Below are positions 1-14,693 of a DNA stretch of 24,745 bases, one piece after another. How positions within the stretch are numbered: position 1 is the first letter of the stretch; every line of letters starts with the position of its first letter. The notes under the pieces were generated by a model, which worked only from the letters and a program-made list of their open reading frames with translations, did no database searches and had not been told where the DNA came from. This DNA comes from a virus: the IMG/VR virus record IMGVR_UViG_3300006924_000164, positions 1 through 24,745 of that record. The stretch is one strand, 5' to 3'. The translations under genes and the position numbers were made by a program.

Positions 1-209
1 CCAGCCCATCTAGTAGACGGATGATGATGGTATCCACCTTTCGATACTGTTCCTGCTTTAGTCAACGGAAGATGATGCTCAGGGCAGTTGTATCTACGCA
101 AAGCAGAGACAAGCATCTGGCTAGTTTCGGTTACCATCTTGACTACATGCTTATCACATAGTTGAGTAGCAGAAACAGTAGGATCGTTGTCAACGCAAAA
201 AATGTTCAA
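1..209 (-). CDS. Conserved phage protein of unknown function, 5' part only
   Basis: Partial gene that runs off the left edge of the window; 69 codons are visible. It appears to start at a TTG (207-209) overlapping the stop codon of the upstream gene, with a GGAG Shine-Dalgarno 8 nt before it. The protein begins NIFCVDNDPTVSATQLCDKH and continues VVKMVTETSQMLVSALRR, followed by a His-rich stretch and PSTRWAG. From memory, the pattern 'DxDP...CDKHVVKM..E..QML' near the N-terminus is shared by many uncharacterised T4-like phage proteins whose function I do not know. Codon use matches the neighbours. It is the third gene of a minus-strand operon with the metallopeptidase-VWA and AAA+ genes. The reading frame is well supported; the TTG start is an inference. 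Confidence 0.7.
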   Translation of the reverse strand, partial: MNIFCVDNDPTVSATQLCDKHVVKMVTETSQMLVSALRRYNCPEHHLPLTKAGTVSKGGYHHHPSTRWA

Positions 210-1660
210 GACTCAAACTCCGATAACTTAAAGACGCGATTGTGTTCGATACACTTTTTAGGAATCCAGTCGGTGTACATTTCATCAGTCAGAAACCAAA
301 ACCAGTTAAGCGGTTTTTCTGGCTGAACCATCACACCGGAACAGTCATATCCATCAGTAAAGTGTATCACAATCTCGGGGTATTTGTCAATACTTCTACT
401 AGATAATTGTTGTTGAATGTACCGTTCAATACATCCATAGTCATCAGAACCATAACCGGCGACCACAGGATTCTTGTAATCTAATTCCTTGACCTCAGTA
501 GTTCGTGAGAACAAACGAACATTGAAATACTTGGGGTCTAGTGAATACGCTGCCTTGAAGAACTGCTCTTTCAAGTGTTCACATGAACCAGACGAATCAA
601 TGAACAGCCACACCAAGTATCGATTGTCTTTACCGTTGGCACGATTCTTTGATGGTAACAGATACTTGCTAGGCAACAGATTACGTCTGCGGTCGGCATG
701 AATCCACTGTAAAGCATTCTGCTTGTCTTGTGTCTTGTGAACAAACCGACGAAACAGGTCTTGCCATCGCTTGAGTTTTTTCACCTTGCGATAGTCTTGT
801 TGAATGACTCGCTCCAAAGAACCAGCAATCAATGGATCGCCGGGATTACCTTTACCGAAGTTTTCAGTCAAGGCATCACTCAGGTCATCCAAGTCTTTCC
901 TGTCAGCATTCTCCATGATTTCACCGACAACAGATTTCATGTCTTTGTCCGAACCTTCACCCATAGACTCAGCGAGTTTTTCATGATCATCCTTGCTCAT
1001 CTTGGACAAAGCATCTGCTATTTCACGCATTGCTTGTTGTTGATCTTTTGCTTCACTGATTTCTTCTTTGAAGTACTTGATCAACACATCGTTGTAATAC
1101 TCATACGATTTCTTTGGTTCGATGTCCGGTTTGATTTTATGAAACACAGTATCCAAGAATGCACCATGCTTGATTTCACTTAGTGCTTGTGCTGGATGGT
1201 CATCGTCTAACCCACTGCCTTCGGGATGTTGAATGTCAAACGCTTCGCCGAAGTTTAGCGAATCGCGTCTGATACCAAAATGTCCTACGATGGTTTCGTT
1301 GATCACAACATCCATAGCAATGTTGGTCAACTGTCGTTCCATACCAGTTGTGTCTTTGTCGAAGTTTGATTTTGATGACCGCTTACCATGATCAAGGATA
1401 ACATGTAAGCATTCATGACAAATCAAGAACAGCTTAGTGTCAAAGTTTAGAAGTCGCCAGAATGCAGGGTTGATCAAAAAGTCAATACATGCACCTTCTT
1501 TGTTGAATGATACAGCAGCAGTGTCTACATCATAAGTCACTGTTGGTCTGCCCAATTCATAGAACTGAGCAAACACACCATTGAGATTTTCCAACGATAG
1601 ACAGATAGATTGAAAGTCTTGCATGACTATCTGACGATCTTCATGTGTGACTTCACTCAT
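206..1660 (-). CDS. Metallopeptidase / VWA-like domain protein (DUF2201 type)
   Basis: 484 aa from the ATG at 1660, chosen for a GGGAGGAGG Shine-Dalgarno just upstream; the frame is open further upstream but overlaps the AAA+ gene. N-terminal part: a zinc-metallopeptidase signature HECLH at residues 82-86, followed by NIAMDVVIN near 113-121, the arrangement seen in the DUF2201 N-terminal putative metallopeptidase domain. Middle (about 195-310): charged and helical. C-terminal part: a VWA-like domain with the MIDAS motif DSSGS (355-359) and a later TDG (435-437). Proteins of this type are usually encoded beside a MoxR-family AAA+ ATPase, and here the MoxR-like gene lies immediately upstream with an 8-bp overlap (ATGAGTGA), so they are probably translated together. 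In bacteria such pairs are thought to act in protein or metal-centre maturation; the role in a phage is unknown. Confidence 0.88.
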   Translation of the reverse strand: MSEVTHEDRQIVMQDFQSICLSLENLNGVFAQFYELGRPTVTYDVDTAAVSFNKEGACIDFLINPAFWRLLNFDTKLFLICHECLHVILDHGKRSSKSNFDKDTTGMERQLTNIAMDVVINETIVGHFGIRRDSLNFGEAFDIQHPEGSGLDDDHPAQALSEIKHGAFLDTVFHKIKPDIEPKKSYEYYNDVLIKYFKEEISEAKDQQQAMREIADALSKMSKDDHEKLAESMGEGSDKDMKSVVGEIMENADRKDLDDLSDALTENFGKGNPGDPLIAGSLERVIQQDYRKVKKLKRWQDLFRRFVHKTQDKQNALQWIHADRRRNLLPSKYLLPSKNRANGKDNRYLVWLFIDSSGSCEHLKEQFFKAAYSLDPKYFNVRLFSRTTEVKELDYKNPVVAGYGSDDYGCIERYIQQQLSSRSIDKYPEIVIHFTDGYDCSGVMVQPEKPLNWFWFLTDEMYTDWIPKKCIEHNRVFKLSEFES

Positions 1661-2984
1661 CCGCGCCTCCTCCCCATGCTGATCCTGACCAGAAATCATC
1701 AGGTGTATCACAAGTCTCGGCGATGCCTTCATCACTGTCAAGCAACACTTCGATTTGTGTGCGAACAGTATCATCAAGAGATTCAAGTGAAAGCAGACCT
1801 CTTAGACGTTCATCATAGTCGCTGCACTTTTTCATAACATCGCGTGTAATAGGTGCATAATCCCGCACGATTCTCACTAGTGTTTCATCAGTCGCAGAAT
1901 GAGCAACACTGTGGAATACATTTACATCTTGATCACAAATGCCTTCTAGGTTGTCAACAACTGCTTTTGTTTCTGAACCATTGACAAGCGATTCCATCAA
2001 ATCATCATCTCCACTTCGGTGTGCGGCAATGATTCTTTGTTTGAGAGAACCAGCAGTCATTACGTTGAGGAAGTCTGCAACATTGATGTTGCTAGGGAAG
2101 ATTGTTTTAAGCAAAGACTTATTTGCGGAACAGTTTACAAACGCATCCATCGCATAGTCAAGTCGGCGTGGCGATAGACTGTTCTTTTGTTTGCTGGTTA
2201 GTGTGTTCCACCACTGAACTGCGGAAGCACCATCTCCACCGGGATACTTCTTGGAAAAGTACGATGCCGATACCTTGTAAGGAACTTCGATCTGCATCTG
2301 AAACCGGTCTGCTTGTGCAGGGTCTAGTTGCTCAGTGTCATAGTTGAAGTCATCATCGTCATCAGGATTGATAGCAGTCCAGACGTATTTTAGATTCGGC
2401 AACTTGCGACCATTGATAGACTTGAACTGAATCAACTCCATCACCGCATTACGAACACCCTTGTCTGATCGGTTGTACTCATCGATGAAGATTGCTTCTA
2501 GCGATTCATCCATCAACGCTTGTGGTCGAACAAAACCCAGATAGGTTTCACCTTGGTTATCTGTCATTTCTTTGGGTACACCAATGAAGTCAACAAACGG
2601 GTCCATTGTTGATCCAGAGAAGTAGACGAAATTGATGTCATGCCGTTCCATTGCTGCATTGATGCGAGCAGTTTTACCTACACCATGCTTACCAGACAAC
2701 ATAACATTCATGCCGTTCTTAATAGCAAAGTCTAGTTGCGAATCAATTTGATCTGCCATGTCTACCTCTTCAGGGGTGATAATGTTTTCCCACGGGATGT
2801 TATGGTTTGACCAAACACCTGTCGCGTGGGGTATAAATAGGGGTGTGTGAGAACAATACACAACCTCACCGTATGGATCATCCCCGTAGCTGTCGATGTT
2901 GGGTATTTCCATAACACAAGTATAGGCTTTTTCACTGCCAAAATCAATACAACCAAAGAATTTTTTCGAAGGGTCATAAATCAT
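1653..2984 (-). CDS. MoxR-family AAA+ ATPase
   Basis: Walker A GKHGVGKT lies at residues 98-105 if the start is 2984 (443 aa). Walker B is seen in 'AIFIDEYNRS', followed by sensor-type 'VWTAINPD' and an arginine-containing 'DPAQADRFQ', all typical of MoxR/RavA-like AAA+ proteins. The start is uncertain. The ATG at 2759 (368 aa) has the better Shine-Dalgarno (GAGG, 5 nt away). However, the 75 codons upstream read like real protein (for example GVWSNHNIPWENIITPEEV) with ordinary codon use, so I extend to the ATG at 2984. That ATG shares a CATG with the start of the divergent plus-strand gene. With the longer start, a plus-strand late promoter (2832-2839) lies inside this gene. The partner is the metallopeptidase-VWA protein just downstream. 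Function as a MoxR-type ATPase is well supported; its substrate is unknown. Confidence 0.85.
   Translation of the reverse strand: MIYDPSKKFFGCIDFGSEKAYTCVMEIPNIDSYGDDPYGEVVYCSHTPLFIPHATGVWSNHNIPWENIITPEEVDMADQIDSQLDFAIKNGMNVMLSGKHGVGKTARINAAMERHDINFVYFSGSTMDPFVDFIGVPKEMTDNQGETYLGFVRPQALMDESLEAIFIDEYNRSDKGVRNAVMELIQFKSINGRKLPNLKYVWTAINPDDDDDFNYDTEQLDPAQADRFQMQIEVPYKVSASYFSKKYPGGDGASAVQWWNTLTSKQKNSLSPRRLDYAMDAFVNCSANKSLLKTIFPSNINVADFLNVMTAGSLKQRIIAAHRSGDDDLMESLVNGSETKAVVDNLEGICDQDVNVFHSVAHSATDETLVRIVRDYAPITRDVMKKCSDYDERLRGLLSLESLDDTVRTQIEVLLDSDEGIAETCDTPDDFWSGSAWGGGADE
2832..2839 (+). promoter_or_regulatory. T4-type late promoter (TATAAATA)
   Basis: Exact TATAAATA followed by G. It is the -10-like element read by gp55-programmed RNA polymerase in T4-type phages, and this window encodes gp55. 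It lies about 143 bp upstream of the tail-tube-like gene, a product expected late in infection. It also falls within the probable 5' coding region of the opposing AAA+ gene. Confidence 0.75.
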
Positions 2985-3525
2985 GTCCACACCGGGATTT
3001 ACAAGAAACGGACCAACAAGCAACAATTTATTGAAGGAAACGGGCTTTTCGTTCACCTGTTCGTTCATTCCCGATACGGTATACCACCTACAAAGTGCTA
3101 ACCTACCGGGGGTATCTGGCAACCCGGTTCCTATGCAGACACCACTCACCACCATGAATGTACCGGGTGACCAGTTGGAATACGAGCCACTAAACATCAC
3201 TTTTCTGGTAGATGAAGAGATGGCAAACTATCGTAAAATGTATGACTGGATGAAGATGCTCTATACCGCAGAGAAAACATCAGACTTCACCACACTGATC
3301 AATCAAGACTTTCTAATGGATACTTACGGCGGCGGTATCACTGATGCTACACTGACTGTTCGATCAAACAAACACAACCCGACTGTCCGTGTTCAGTACC
3401 AAGATTTATTTCCAACATCGCTAGGCGAACTACAATTTACAACAGCAAGTACTGACGCAGAAGACCTTGTATGTACAGCGACATTTAGCTATACTGGATA
3501 CAAAATAGATTATATATCATCCTAA
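2983..3525 (+). CDS. Tail tube-like structural protein (gp19/gp54-like fold)
   Basis: 180 aa, starting at ATG 2983 with GAAGGG 9 nt upstream. The sequence resembles the tail-tube family of contractile phages. An N-terminal 'FSFTCSFIPDTVYHLQSANLPG' type segment leads into 'PGDQLEYEPLNITFLVDEEM' and 'YRKMYDWMKML'; later come 'NPTVRVQYQDLFPTSLGELQF' and a C-terminal 'CTATFSYTGYKID'. T4 gp19 has the same order of features (the 'DDWTVTV.ND' strand, the 'W' helix, and 'LWPTNVGELQLDW...FEVTLALDYWE'), but it is 163 aa and only distantly similar. It could be the main tube protein or a tube-initiator/baseplate relative such as gp54 or gp48, although those are longer in T4. It is followed 18 nt later by uvsY. 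A late promoter lies upstream at 2832. The broad family is fairly sure, the exact role less so. Confidence 0.7.
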   Translation: MSTPGFTRNGPTSNNLLKETGFSFTCSFIPDTVYHLQSANLPGVSGNPVPMQTPLTTMNVPGDQLEYEPLNITFLVDEEMANYRKMYDWMKMLYTAEKTSDFTTLINQDFLMDTYGGGITDATLTVRSNKHNPTVRVQYQDLFPTSLGELQFTTASTDAEDLVCTATFSYTGYKIDYISS

Positions 3526-4094: not shown

Positions 4095-4799
4095 ATGACT
4101 ACTATTTATCACCAGCGATACCGCAAGCTCATCGACCACTACAAATCAATTGTATGTGAAGGCTATACCGAACGTCACCACATCATACCAAAATGCATGG
4201 GCGGTGACAATAGCGAAGACAATCTTGTTGATCTTCCAGCGAAGGCACACTACATTGCCCATTTGCTATTGACTAAGATGTACCCCGAGAACCGGTCAAT
4301 AAGGTTTGCCTTTAGTGCTATGAGAATGCAAACAAACAAACATACCAGAAAATTTATTACAGCAAATCGATACGCTAAAATGCGGGAACTACACGGTAGC
4401 CCTATAACAATTGACGGGAACACATTTCCATCAGGAAAACAAGCAGCAGACTTCTACCAAACAACCGAAGCTACTATTTCCAATTGGAGAATATACGGAA
4501 AGCCCGATAAAACAAAATATCATATTGTCATAGACGGGATGACATTCACATCTAAAAAAGAGGCTAGGGCATATTTCAACTGCTCACAATCTCGTTTAGA
4601 AACATGGATAAATACGGGTGGGAAATCCCGCTGTCGTATGAACGAATCTCCATGTCAAATAAACGGTATTGAGTTTCAAACACAACAATCTGCCGCAGAA
4701 TACTATAATGTGTCACGCCGAACGATTGCGACATGGATAAAAACCAATTCATGGCAAAATAAAAAATGGCAAACTAAGTATGGATGTTCTGATATCTAA
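4095..4799 (+). CDS. HNH homing-type endonuclease with three DNA-binding repeats
   Basis: 234 aa. AGGGAGA lies upstream of the ATG. N-terminal HNH nuclease: 'ERHHIIPKCMGGDNSEDNLV' with His28/His29, Asn43 and His52 (KAHYIAH) as probable metal and catalytic residues. The rest holds three copies of a roughly 30-residue unit at about 103-133, 144-173 and 187-216. Each has the pattern I-x-G-x-x-F-x-(S/T)-x-x-x-A-x-x-(Y/F)-(Y/F)...T/S...W-I, as in NUMOD1-type helix-turn-helix modules of phage homing endonucleases. It sits between uvsY and uvsW, and its last 20 nt overlap the start of uvsW. It has its own terminator/late-promoter boundary upstream, so it looks like an inserted selfish gene. A free-standing homing endonuclease that cuts a related phage lacking the insert is the likely role (inference). 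Confidence 0.88.
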   Translation: MTTIYHQRYRKLIDHYKSIVCEGYTERHHIIPKCMGGDNSEDNLVDLPAKAHYIAHLLLTKMYPENRSIRFAFSAMRMQTNKHTRKFITANRYAKMRELHGSPITIDGNTFPSGKQAADFYQTTEATISNWRIYGKPDKTKYHIVIDGMTFTSKKEARAYFNCSQSRLETWINTGGKSRCRMNESPCQINGIEFQTQQSAAEYYNVSRRTIATWIKTNSWQNKKWQTKYGCSDI

Positions 4800-10774: not shown

Positions 10775-12991
10775 TTAAGAAACCCAATCCGTCGAGTCGG
10801 TTGCGAAGTTTTTCGCAAGCATCTGGATGAACTGTCGTGATTCCTTACCAGCACCAAGAGCATCGAACCCGATCACGTAGGAAGCGTTGAACCCGCCAAC
10901 ACCCTTGACTTCGCTGATCGAATTGCTACCGTGATGAGCGGGGGCAATCGAGTTACGCTGACCAGTTTCATTATCATCACCCATTGGAAGAGCAAAGTTG
11001 TTGCTGGCGTGGATGTTGATGAAGCTAGTGTTGTGAGCGGCACGAATATCTTGAATCAGTGCGTTACCGTAAGAAATACCAGTGTAGGTTTTACCAGTAA
11101 TCTTAGAAGTGGTATTGGTAACTTCACGGGAAGAATCATAGTAGCTGTATGACCGACCGTGGACACCGTTACCGTCTTCACCATCGGTGAGCATGATCGC
11201 AGTGACGATATCAACTCGGTTGTTTGCTTTGAAGTCACGGATCAAAACATTCGCAACTTCAAGCGTTTCACCGATAGGCGTGCCGCCCATGTAGATCGGA
11301 CCAGCACTACCGTAGCCTGCCATCCGTTCGGTGTAGTTAGTATTTCGATCCTGATCCCGACACCAAGCGTAAACAAACTCGGTAGCCATTGCCAACTCCC
11401 GACCCGACATTGCCGAAGACATCAACTTCACAATGTGGGGGCGAATTTTACCCATCGGCGTACCGTCTGCATTGATTCCACCTTTACGAGTCCGACCCGT
11501 GGTGAAAGTGTAAACTTCAAACGGCACACGGATTGCCTTGCAGAACTGAGTAAGCAGGATAGTGGTCTTCGCAGTCTGGAAGATACAATCGGTCATCGAC
11601 GAAGAGAAGTCGATGAAGAAGACAAGCCCGTGAGACTTACCCTTCTGAACTTCAGCAGCGCGACGGAAAACATCATCAGTAATCTTGTAGGCGTGGAGTC
11701 GGTTGGTATCAATCACGCCAGTCTTAGCTAGTCGAGTACGCTGGTAATCACTTGCCGCTTGATGTCGCTTGAATGCCTGAGCCATTGCAGCAACTTGAGG
11801 CTTGATGTCGCTCATGAATTCAGAGTATCGCGCGGTATGAGCAGCAAACTTACCAGATTCAGCAGCAATCCGCATGAAATTTGTCATACCATCACGAACA
11901 TGCTTACCATCAGCGATTACATCGGTAACACCTTTTCGCTTTTTACCGCGATACTCAATTCGGTAGTTGCTGATTCGCTTTGAAGTATCAGCCGACTGAG
12001 CCATAGCGTTATTCAGAGCGGATTCAGTAGCGATGTCACCGCCAAGCAGAGAAGCAGACGCTTCGCCAAGCCCACCTTTTTTCTGGATGGTCGATGCTTC
12101 ACCCTGTTCGGATTCATCACCGTCTTCATCACCTTCGCCCGATGTCGATTCACCAGACTGGCTACCGGCATCACCCGCTTCATCACCTTCACCGGATTCA
12201 GACCCGTTAGCACCGGCATCGTCACCGGATTCATCACCGGAACCACCAGCACCGTCATCGTCACCGTCTTCAGACTGACCAGCACCGTTATCGTCACCGG
12301 ATTCATCACCGTCTTCAGACTGACCAGCACCAGACTGTTGCTCTTGCTCTTCATCACCCTGATCACCAGACTGACCCTGTTGACCTTGATCGCCTTGATC
12401 CTGTTGATCCTGCGAAGAATTGTCACGCTCATAAACAGACTTGACCAGAGCGGCAACGTCTTCAAACGATTCAAGATCGTCAAGTTTATCAACGATATCT
12501 TGCTCTTCAGCAGAGAACGGGACATCAACAATCGCGCCAGCTTTTGCGTGGATGTTAAGTCTATCCATGAAGCCAAGCGAGCCAACGCGCGACTGAAGAT
12601 CGTCACCGAAGAATCCGGCATCGATCAAATTTTGGTAACCCTTGTAAAACTCACCACGAAGACCGGGATACTCTCGCTGAATCAGCTTTTCGATTCGTGC
12701 GTCTTCGACAATGTTTAGAACCTGTTGTAGCTTGCGCTGAGCAGCTTCAGCCTGATTTGGTTCGATGTCACGACGATACGGTTCAACATCCGCCATGCGC
12801 GGAGTGTAAAGAGCATGACCAACTTCGTGCGCTTCGAAGAGAGTAGTAACCGATTCATCAAGATCAGCCGCAAACATCGGAAGAGTAAGAGTCCGCGATT
12901 CGGTATCAAACGAAGCGGTTTGAGCAGCAGCGCGAACAACCGTAATGTTTTCGGTAGCCAGCAAGCGGGAAAAAGTATCAGAGTTAGACAT
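10775..12991 (-). CDS. cobT: CobT-like metallopeptidase / VWA protein
   Basis: 738 aa. The ATG at 12991 has GGAG 6 nt upstream; a TTG 12 nt earlier is in frame but overlaps that site. N-terminal domain: a zinc-protease-type HEVGH motif at 55-59 followed by 'NIVEDARIEKLIQREYPG' (93-110), as in CobT-like peptidase domains. Residues 191-300 are a low-complexity linker of Gln, Gly, Ser, Asp and Glu, including two GAGQSEDGD units. C-terminal VWA domain: MIDAS DFSSS (461-465), 'GGTPIGE' threonine (571) and TDGEDG (602-607). In aerobic B12 synthesis CobT works with the AAA+ CobS and the CobN chelatase. Here only a CobS-like gene accompanies it, divergently. A TTGACT-17-GATAAT promoter precedes it. 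A B12 role is not shown; a general AAA+/VWA remodelling or peptidase role is equally possible. Confidence 0.88.
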   Translation of the reverse strand: MSNSDTFSRLLATENITVVRAAAQTASFDTESRTLTLPMFAADLDESVTTLFEAHEVGHALYTPRMADVEPYRRDIEPNQAEAAQRKLQQVLNIVEDARIEKLIQREYPGLRGEFYKGYQNLIDAGFFGDDLQSRVGSLGFMDRLNIHAKAGAIVDVPFSAEEQDIVDKLDDLESFEDVAALVKSVYERDNSSQDQQDQGDQGQQGQSGDQGDEEQEQQSGAGQSEDGDESGDDNGAGQSEDGDDDGAGGSGDESGDDAGANGSESGEGDEAGDAGSQSGESTSGEGDEDGDESEQGEASTIQKKGGLGEASASLLGGDIATESALNNAMAQSADTSKRISNYRIEYRGKKRKGVTDVIADGKHVRDGMTNFMRIAAESGKFAAHTARYSEFMSDIKPQVAAMAQAFKRHQAASDYQRTRLAKTGVIDTNRLHAYKITDDVFRRAAEVQKGKSHGLVFFIDFSSSMTDCIFQTAKTTILLTQFCKAIRVPFEVYTFTTGRTRKGGINADGTPMGKIRPHIVKLMSSAMSGRELAMATEFVYAWCRDQDRNTNYTERMAGYGSAGPIYMGGTPIGETLEVANVLIRDFKANNRVDIVTAIMLTDGEDGNGVHGRSYSYYDSSREVTNTTSKITGKTYTGISYGNALIQDIRAAHNTSFINIHASNNFALPMGDDNETGQRNSIAPAHHGSNSISEVKGVGGFNASYVIGFDALGAGKESRQFIQMLAKNFATDSTDWVS
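12092..12421 (-). repeat. Low-complexity acidic linker coding repeat in the cobT-like gene
   Basis: About 110 codons almost wholly Gln, Gly, Ser, Asp, Glu and Ala, with imperfect tandem units (SGDE/SGDD, GAGQSEDGD twice). Such linkers are common between the N-terminal and VWA domains of CobT-like proteins. The repeats could vary in length between related phages. Confidence 0.85.
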
Positions 12992-13026
12992 TAAATGCTC
13001 CAAAGAGGAAAATCAGTTGACAATAA

Positions 13027-13055
13027 ATTATCCCATAATTGCCCGCTCAAGTCAA
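13027..13055 (-). promoter_or_regulatory. Sigma70-type promoter for the cobT-like gene
   Basis: On the minus strand: TTGACT (13055-13050), 17-nt spacer, GATAAT (13032-13027), 36 nt before the ATG. This is near consensus. The same -35, spacer length and -10 occur at 18973-19001, suggesting a common early promoter class. Confidence 0.8.
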
Positions 13056-13079
13056 CCCCCTGAGCCAAATTTATTGTAG

Positions 13080-13237
13080 AATACACCTTAGTGGTTAGAT
13101 GACCAGTCCTTATATATGGGGCGAAAACTCGCAGGATAAACTAACTACTTTGGCTTGTGCCGGGGGCGAGCCGTAAGTGCTTATGTATAAAGGACTTACG
13201 AATTGTGATTGTGAATTTGTAACTACTAAGGTGTATT
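13080..13237. repeat. 18-bp inverted repeat enclosing a multi-hairpin element
   Basis: The left arm AATACACCTTAGTGGTTA (13080-13097) is complementary to the right arm TAACTACTAAGGTGTATT (13220-13237), 17 of 18 positions exact and the last a G-U pair in RNA. Inside are three hairpins: GCGA/TCGC (13121-13132) with outer TCCT/AGGA; GGCTTG/CGAGCC (13152-13172); and CGTAAGT/ACTTACG (13172-13200). This would fold as a closed three-branch junction. No open frame of note, no clear promoter of its own and no target-site duplication. It could be a structured RNA, a cruciform/origin element or a small MITE-like insertion. Confidence 0.75.
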
Positions 13238-13276
13238 ATGAATAAAATTGTGAAATGCCCCTTGCTACCCTATTGA
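13238..13276 (+). CDS. Possible 12-codon mini-ORF next to the inverted repeat
   Basis: ATG directly after the right arm of the inverted repeat encodes MNKIVKCPLLPY and a stop. AAGG, 6 nt upstream, lies inside the right arm, so pairing of the arms would hide it. Its stop lies in the -35 box of the cobS-like promoter. It could be a leader peptide or chance. Confidence 0.2.
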   Translation: MNKIVKCPLLPY

Positions 13277-13300
13277 CCTCAGAATTCATTATGGTACAAT
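13273..13300 (+). promoter_or_regulatory. Sigma70-type promoter for the cobS-like gene
   Basis: TTGACC, 16-nt spacer, TACAAT, 46 nt before the ATG at 13347. It lies downstream of the inverted-repeat element, so transcripts from it would not include that element. Confidence 0.7.
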
Positions 13301-13346
13301 ATGCCTGTCAACTGATTACCCCTTCCCCTACTTTGGAGTTTACCTC

Positions 13347-14621
13347 ATGGCTATTACCCTTCGTTCCAAGTCTCTCGCCGTTCTCTCTGCTCTCACCGAA
13401 GAGTATGGTGATATGGTCGAGCGTGCCGATCTCGTTGAAGCGGTCGAAACTGGTCTGATCGACCGCATTCCACAATGGCTAACTACATCCGCTGAACTTC
13501 GTGCGGGTCGCGGTATCTATCGTCTTCCTACTTGGTTGCTCGATGATTCGCCAGCTAAGCCTGTTGCCGCTAAGCCTAAGCGTAAGTCTAAGGCTAAGCC
13601 TGTTGCCGCTAAGCCTGTTGCCGCTGTTGCTGATCCGGTCGCTGAACCGGTTGCTGCTGCTAAGCCTACTTCGTTTGATAACGTGAAGACCGCCGCCGAT
13701 GGTCACTCGTTTGTTCCGAATCAATCGACCAACTACATTCCTTGGGGCAACTCTAAGTCGCTCAAGATGGTGCTTGAATCCGGTAAGTATATGCCCGTGT
13801 TCATCACTGGTCTGTCGGGTAACGGTAAGACCTACATGATCGAGCAAGAAGTTGCGCGTGCCAATCGTGAACTGTTCCGTGTGAATATTAATACTGCCAC
13901 CGATGAGGATGATCTGCTTGGTGGTTTCCGTCTGGTCAATGGTCAAACCGTTTGGTTTGATGGTCCGGTTATCGAAGCAATGAAGCGCGGTGCGGTTCTG
14001 CTGCTCGATGAACTAGACCTTGGTACCGAGCGTATCTTGTGTCTTCAGTCGGTGCTTGAAGGTAAGGGTGTGTTCATCAAAAAGACCAATCAATGGGTCG
14101 AACCTGCTCCCGGCTTTACGGTTGTTGCCACTGGTAACACAAAGGGTCAAGGTGACGATACGAACAAGTTTATCGGTGCTAACGTGATGAACGAAGCATT
14201 CCTTGAGCGTTTCCCGGTTTGGCTTGAACAGTCCTACCCTACCGAATCGGTTGAAACTCGTATCGTCAAGCGTTTGTTCAAGTCGCTTGGTCTGACCGAA
14301 GACGAAAAGCAAATCGATACGCTGATCAAGTTTGCTCAAAAGACCCGTAAGACCTATGAGGCTGGTGGTTGTGATGACCTGATCACTACTCGACGCTTGT
14401 GCCTGATTGTTGAATTGATGCCGGTGTTCGGTAAGATTGAAAAGGCAGTCGAAATTGCTTGCTCACGCTTCTGCAAGGAATCCAAGCGAGACTTCGTGAA
14501 GCTGTTCAAGGCATTGACCGAAGAGGCAAACAAGCCTGCTGAACCGGTCGCTCCTGCTACTGATGATACATCTTCTATCGGTCAGGCAATGGAAAAGCTG
14601 GTAAACGGTGTCCCGTTCTAA
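13347..14621 (+). CDS. cobS: CobS-like AAA+ ATPase
   Basis: 424 aa. GGAG lies 8 nt before the ATG. Residues 1-65 form a small domain ending 'WLTTSAELRAGRGIYRLP', possibly winged-helix-like. Residues 69-106 are a Lys/Ala/Pro/Val linker with KPVAAKP repeats. The AAA+ core starts near 'NYIPWGNSKSLKMVLESGKY' with Walker A GLSGNGKT (155-162), Walker B VLLLDELD (217-224), 'VVATGNTKGQGD' (sensor region) and 'FLERFPVWLEQ' (arginine finger region), as in CobS. CobS-like genes are common in marine T4-type phages. Cellular CobS is the ATPase of the CobNST cobalt chelatase. It is divergent from the CobT-like partner and followed by a strong terminator. Whether it serves host B12 synthesis or a phage-specific machine is unknown. 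Confidence 0.9.
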   Translation: MAITLRSKSLAVLSALTEEYGDMVERADLVEAVETGLIDRIPQWLTTSAELRAGRGIYRLPTWLLDDSPAKPVAAKPKRKSKAKPVAAKPVAAVADPVAEPVAAAKPTSFDNVKTAADGHSFVPNQSTNYIPWGNSKSLKMVLESGKYMPVFITGLSGNGKTYMIEQEVARANRELFRVNINTATDEDDLLGGFRLVNGQTVWFDGPVIEAMKRGAVLLLDELDLGTERILCLQSVLEGKGVFIKKTNQWVEPAPGFTVVATGNTKGQGDDTNKFIGANVMNEAFLERFPVWLEQSYPTESVETRIVKRLFKSLGLTEDEKQIDTLIKFAQKTRKTYEAGGCDDLITTRRLCLIVELMPVFGKIEKAVEIACSRFCKESKRDFVKLFKALTEEANKPAEPVAPATDDTSSIGQAMEKLVNGVPF

Positions 14622-14660
14622 AACAATAACCTGTCTCCCGTAGGGGGAACAGTTGACACG

Positions 14661-14693
14661 CCGGGCAGGATTTATTTCCTGCCCGGTTTTTTT
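14661..14693 (+). terminator. Strong terminator after the cobS-like gene
   Basis: CCGGGCAGGA (14661-14670) pairs with TCCTGCCCGG (14677-14686) across a 6-nt loop, followed by seven T. A classic intrinsic terminator. A smaller imperfect hairpin (CTGT...ACAG around CCC/GGG, 14631-14652) precedes it. Confidence 0.93.

Follow-up and report, generated by a model that had tools for sequence, protein, structure and literature searches.

The stretch analysed here (24,745 bases; an IMG/VR virus record), referred to as the window, belongs by its gene content to a T4-like phage distantly related to the Kyanoviridae. It encodes a gp55-like sigma factor, UvsY, UvsW and gp46/47-like proteins, homologues of gp45, gp44 and gp62, as well as a peptidase (phrog_459) and a CobS-like ATPase (phrog_249), the latter with isolate matches of up to 41–54 % identity. 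The genes for the last two proteins are divergently oriented, and the features of the DNA at and between them are compiled in Table 1. All contigs considered are metagenomic. Near-identical contigs (>99 %) are present in IMG/VR and carry the region 13080–13237 unchanged, so that they provide no information on covariation; a search for closer relatives with the DNA polymerase as query retrieved only the same phage.

Besides the peptidase/cobS pair, the window harbours a second gene pair for an ATPase and a metallopeptidase/vWA-like protein (206–3200, minus strand; DUF2201_N; phrog_1297/249-like). A probable HNH homing endonuclease with a helix-turn-helix tail (4095–4799; HHIIPKCMGGDNSEDN) is encoded between the uvsY- and uvsW-like genes, and in the gap preceding it the minus strand is also strongly folded. 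Immediately 3′ of cobS, a strong intrinsic terminator is located (14660–14687, plus strand; 11-bp stem and T-run).

Table 1. Features of the peptidase/cobS intergenic region and its flanking genes (window coordinates)
Feature	Position	Strand	Remarks
Phage peptidase (phrog_459)	10775..13003	-	likely ATG start at 12991
Peptidase leader	13011..13022	-	exact inverted copy of cobS leader TGTCAACTGATT
Peptidase promoter TTGACT-17-GATAAT	13027..13055	-	sigma-70-like consensus match; mirrors cobS promoter
Left 18-bp arm	13080..13097	-	inner end of mirrored upstream region of peptidase promoter
Possible decayed partner dyad	13086..13114	+	14/22; overlaps left arm and AGTCCTT half-site; weak
GC-rich hairpin GGCTTGTGCCGGGGGCGAGCC	13152..13172	+	abuts 29-bp dyad
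29-bp dyad CGTAAGTGCTT-ATGTATA-AAGGACTTACG	13172..13200	+	conserved upstream site of cobS; corresponds to hairpin 3
Right 18-bp arm	13220..13237	+	inner end of mirrored upstream region of cobS promoter
cobS promoter TTGACC-16-TACAAT	13273..13300	+	sigma-70-like consensus match; extended -10 (TTATGGTACAAT)
cobS leader TGTCAACTGATT	13306..13317	+	12/12 identical in mirror alignment
CobS-like AAA ATPase	13347..14621	+	phrog_249, PF07728

The original prediction for this region, an 18-bp inverted repeat closing over further hairpins, was borne out for the repeat itself: the two arms pair at 18 of 18 positions (one G-U) and enclose 122 nt. For spans of 30–260 nt this helix is the longest in the window, the next-best ones comprising 14 pairs and being mostly rich in G-U. 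The plus strand of 13075–13242 folds at -61 kcal/mol (z -6.55; 0 of 200 shuffles as good), the minus strand at -41.5 (z -5.2), and among 2460 segments of 160 nt on both strands the largest GC-corrected excess of stability is that beginning at 13081 on the plus strand. With the arms held fixed, the plus-strand interior still surpasses its shuffles (0/300), the minus-strand interior much less so (24/300). Two of the three predicted inner hairpins (13152–13172 and 13172–13200) are sound, while that at 13107–13136 amounts to a weak 4-bp closure. Likewise, closure as a multi-branch junction is attainable (-60.9 with the third hairpin forced), but the minimum-energy form (-63.5) instead employs the proposed exact complementarity of AGTCCTT at 13105–13111 with 13190–13196, which is real.

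It was also correctly stated that nothing annotated explains the element. Neither a match by blastn against INPHARED nor a tRNA was detected, exact patterns for the element and its arms recovered only near-identical contigs from IMG/VR, and blastn and nhmmer searches of 80 CobS loci yielded nothing but near-identical copies. Tiny reading frames within the element (about 13100–13177 and 13184–13246) were set aside, since nothing supports them.

The symmetry of the region extends beyond the arms. When the minus strand leading outward from the left arm was aligned with the plus strand leading outward from the right arm, a colinear mirror of about 120 nt was obtained, comprising arm, -35, extended -10 (TTATGG), leader and ribosome site; its score of 70 compares to a mean of 28 (sd 5) and a maximum of 52 in 500 shuffles. 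Since the mirror is colinear over all these features, the element is the inner part of a larger inverted pair of predicted promoter modules, with its 18-bp arms forming the inner ends. Outward promoters, assigned in the window and its relatives by consensus match only, flank a conserved palindromic site, as in divergent promoter/operator regions. A scan of IMG/VR with the -10 motif gave mostly chance matches outside the phage of the window and locus L051.

L051 is the only one among the first 80 CobS loci in which peptidase and cobS are divergent, and it contains a 68-nt inverted repeat (79 %) taking in both promoters. Using its CobS as query, a clade was retrieved in which the two genes are likewise divergent. 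The comparison covered 14 loci in addition to the window; as L108 duplicates L107, these represent thirteen diverged IMG/VR relatives. The mirror score exceeded that of every shuffle in 11 of these 14 loci (not in L107/L108 and L116), and the cobS promoters are of the same -10 class as in the window. In nearly all relatives the intergenic DNA folds beyond shuffles on both strands, which is inherent in inverted repeats. The arm sequences vary from phage to phage, both arms within one phage remaining alike. Such symmetry, kept without conservation of sequence, may reflect duplication or conversion of promoter modules, or shared control.

Several intergenic regions of this clade contain further elements that are absent from the window. 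A third plus-strand promoter-like sequence (TTGACA-17-TGGTATTCG and variants) with a GC-rich hairpin (GCGTGCGTGCGGGCGCG type) downstream of it is kept in L109, L116, L118, L119 and L120. The motif GTTATCGGAC(A/G) recurs in L106, L109, L111, L113, L116 and L118–L120, and iteron-like ACCC(T/G)AACA repeats spaced about 11 bp apart are found in L107, L109, L116 and L135; neither of these was seen in the window.

The part of the element that is conserved in sequence is the 29-bp dyad upstream of cobS. Its layout is fixed at 11-7-11 bp (CGTAAGTSCTT-N7-AAGSACTTACG), and all 22 arm positions of the window dyad match the virus-wide consensus. A leave-one-out PWM assigns it 28.5 bits, compared with 18.6 bits for the second-best site of the window, overlapping the 5′ end of the tail-tube gene. 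Homologous dyads are located upstream of cobS in 11 relatives and are present in every closely related locus, the distance between dyad and cobS -10 amounting to 49–90 bp in 12 loci (most commonly 57–62). Most clade genomes searched, up to 135 kb, contain the dyad at a single locus; in contig G009 it occurs a second time, ahead of a different gene whose promoter is of the same class. Covariation between the half-sites is absent (76.2 % paired versus 78.2 % in shuffles; 13 clade sequences), and the dyad is therefore taken to be a DNA-level feature rather than an RNA hairpin. The window holds one good copy, not a pair; a score of 14, as attained by the possible decayed partner, occurs five times in the window. 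Three copies of ATTGTGA(A/T) adjoin the dyad (13201–13215 and 13246–13254; TTCACAAT on the minus strand), which may be degenerate DnaA boxes or due to chance.

A search pattern derived from the clade of the window (GTAARTSCNTNNNNNNNANGNAYTTACG) matched at least 119 stretches in IMG/VR. At a threshold of ≥17/22, the motif-positive loci (736 kb) contain 475 dyads as compared to 1 in shuffled sequence, a raw count inflated by overlapping loci and corresponding to 383 distinct 29-mers; none was found in the other CobS loci (1.08 Mb). Related contigs are included, so that some of the counts for this family are non-independent. Across the 383 unique dyads, pairing at the 11 positions is about that of shuffled halves and lower at position 8/22. 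A GC-rich stretch often abuts the dyad in other phages, as 13152–13172 does in the window. The dyads are frequently paired. Of 72 unique sites, 46 lie no more than 90 bp from a partner, as against an expectation of 7. The spacing is constant within each genome (42, 50, 52, 53 or 73 bp); L347, for example, has 11 pairs spaced at 42 bp, L270 has 10 at 50 bp, and L246, L263 and L349 have 10 each at 53 bp. In L347, L349, L246, L263, L238, L270 and L229 the pairs alternate with single small ORFs in the manner of a cassette array. Helical phasing is suggested by all pairs taken together (R 0.58) but is not significant on distinct distances (R 0.26, p ~0.3).

According to mechanical ORF calls, 23 dyad-containing gaps are convergent, 20 tandem and 8 divergent (n = 51), the respective background being 100, 238 and 91. 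The preference for convergent gaps in other phages is no less compatible with a boundary- or terminator-like function than with that of an operator. Promoter-like sequences point away from the dyad on 37 of 126 dyad sides and toward it on 16, with 11 in shuffles. In a 257-Gb genome collection the strict pattern matched only 12 stretches, which belong to Treponema, the Planctomycetes group, Verrucomicrobiales and a few other MAG contigs (1–2 copies per genome in ten genomes). Isolate phages gave weak, near-chance matches, the best being an intergenic site of Microviridae (E 0.02), and nothing relevant on the dyad motif or on REP-like arrays of phages was found in the open-access literature. As judged from these searches, the dyad family is almost exclusive to viruses and common to otherwise unrelated phages.

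Taken together, the region 13080–13237 is probably, albeit with considerable reservation, a DNA-level cis-regulatory region common to the two divergent genes, and the conserved core of this composite region is best read as a putative binding site for a dimeric protein. The comparisons described above establish the position of the dyad, its conservation, its DNA-level nature and the arrangement of its family. Lambda-type operator dyads are similar in that a palindrome lies upstream of and between divergent sigma-70-type promoters, which in the window form mirrored modules. They differ from the present 11-7-11 dyad of 29 bp, which is conserved in sequence across unrelated phages, has no known cognate regulator and, at 49–90 bp from the -10, does not overlap the promoter. 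The preference of the dyads for convergent gaps in other phages, the single good copy in the window and the non-significant helical phasing speak against a cis-regulatory region. So does the better folding of the plus-strand interior even with the arms fixed, as an RNA would explain. Together with the more stable plus-strand fold (z -6.55), the latter agrees with a structured RNA, i.e., a plus-strand transcript, small RNA or 5′UTR element adopting the closed multi-branch form. Such an RNA, put forward in the original prediction, is nevertheless unlikely: no Rfam family exceeded its gathering threshold (only SL1 at E 2.4, a chance match), the conserved hairpin displays no compensatory changes and pairs no better than shuffled halves, no plus-strand promoter was found immediately upstream of the element, the cobS promoter lying downstream of it, and the excess folding of the relatives is present on both strands instead of one. 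From the suggestion that the symmetry arose at the RNA or DNA level, the latter part is therefore retained and the former lacks support. The origin of replication likewise suggested would start replication between the divergent genes of the replication-gene cluster, the dyad serving as initiator site and the mirrored promoters priming outward. It receives support from seven relatives (L106, L107, L108, L113, L118, L119 and L120) with perfect DnaA boxes in the intergenic region, such boxes being rare elsewhere in the same contigs (e.g., 2 of 3 lie within this region in 134.8 kb), from the mostly single dyad locus per genome in the cobS clade, and from the minimum of the cumulative GC skew of the window at 13–14 kb. 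The boxes are often tandem and 11 bp apart (TTATCCACAAGTTATCCACA; L106:738–757, L107:3785–3804, L113:3757, L118:3663–3682 and 3821, L119, L120), a likeness to bacterial and plasmid origins with DnaA boxes and iterons. The window itself, however, lacks a DnaA box in this region even if one mismatch is allowed; its GC skew is largely explained by gene orientation, the gene-strand-corrected third-position skew showing no clear break at the site, and other phages carry many dyads per genome, unlike an origin. An origin at this locus is regarded as doubtful, though conceivable for the relatives with DnaA boxes.

The arrays of paired dyads invite comparison with repetitive elements and recombination sites. 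Bacterial REP, BIME and REPIN sequences are short imperfect palindromes which are extragenic, paired at regular spacing, preferentially situated in convergent and tandem gaps and present in many copies per genome (PMC2817692, PMC3116915). The viral family shares all of these traits, including the pairing, of which the window with its one good copy is devoid; it differs in sequence, in residing in viruses instead of bacterial chromosomes, in its outward-facing promoters and in that no RAYT was found. Terminal 18-bp repeats and a REP-like palindrome recurring in arrays of other phages would suit a mobile miniature element (TIR insertion or REP/REPIN-like) between the two genes. We consider this highly improbable, since the mirror continues outward from the supposed TIRs through promoter, leader and ribosome site, and the dyad keeps the same place upstream of cobS across diverged phages of the clade. 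Moreover, no flanking target-site duplication was seen by eye, and the Y1/RAYT transposase domain PF01797 was detected in 0 of 24 contigs, several of which are fragments, with positive controls in 5 genomes. The terminal-inverted-repeat insertion of the original prediction is accordingly disfavoured; co-directional relatives in which the peptidase gene immediately precedes cobS often show an intervening gap of ~70–150 nt, and given the different gene order these do not represent a true empty site. With its 11-7-11 geometry, i.e., ~11-bp inverted arms around a short variable centre, and with arrays separating small genes (L347 and L349, for instance, with 11 and 10 pairs spaced at 42 and 53 bp, respectively), the dyad also resembles core sites of tyrosine recombinases (dif/pdif, lambda core) and integron attC, although its arm sequence is presumably unlike dif. 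A role as recombination or cassette-boundary site, i.e., as the core of an integron- or pdif-like system shuffling small gene cassettes, is nonetheless quite unlikely: the tyrosine integrase domain PF00589 was found in 0 of 24 motif-bearing contigs (several of them fragments) and in all 14 control genomes, some arrays contain dyads differing in their central 7 bp, and the T4-like clade has stably retained the dyad upstream of cobS. In a broader version, the dyad could be the hallmark of a virus-specific gene-cassette system, in which a phage protein acting on paired dyads of constant, genome-specific spacing organises, and perhaps recombines, small-gene cassettes with their own promoters, the cobS site of the window then being a single domesticated copy; this appears rather unlikely.

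Following the interpretation as a cis-regulatory region, a dimeric DNA-binding protein, probably encoded by the phage, would occupy the dyad and activate or insulate the flanking promoters. Phage transcription units would have their upstream edge marked by the dyad, a copy of which may, in the window, have been incorporated into the mirrored divergent promoter region of peptidase and cobS. The two arms within one phage could be alike because a single promoter module underwent inverted duplication or conversion, or because the same factors bind at both promoters, and the RNA fold of the element would be a by-product of the DNA palindromes. A cis-regulatory function would explain why the region resembles a structured RNA without being one. 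Beyond this locus, the regular paired arrays between small genes would imply a common DNA-binding factor or mobility mechanism, and the dyad family may provide a handle on the control or exchange of many small phage genes of unknown function.
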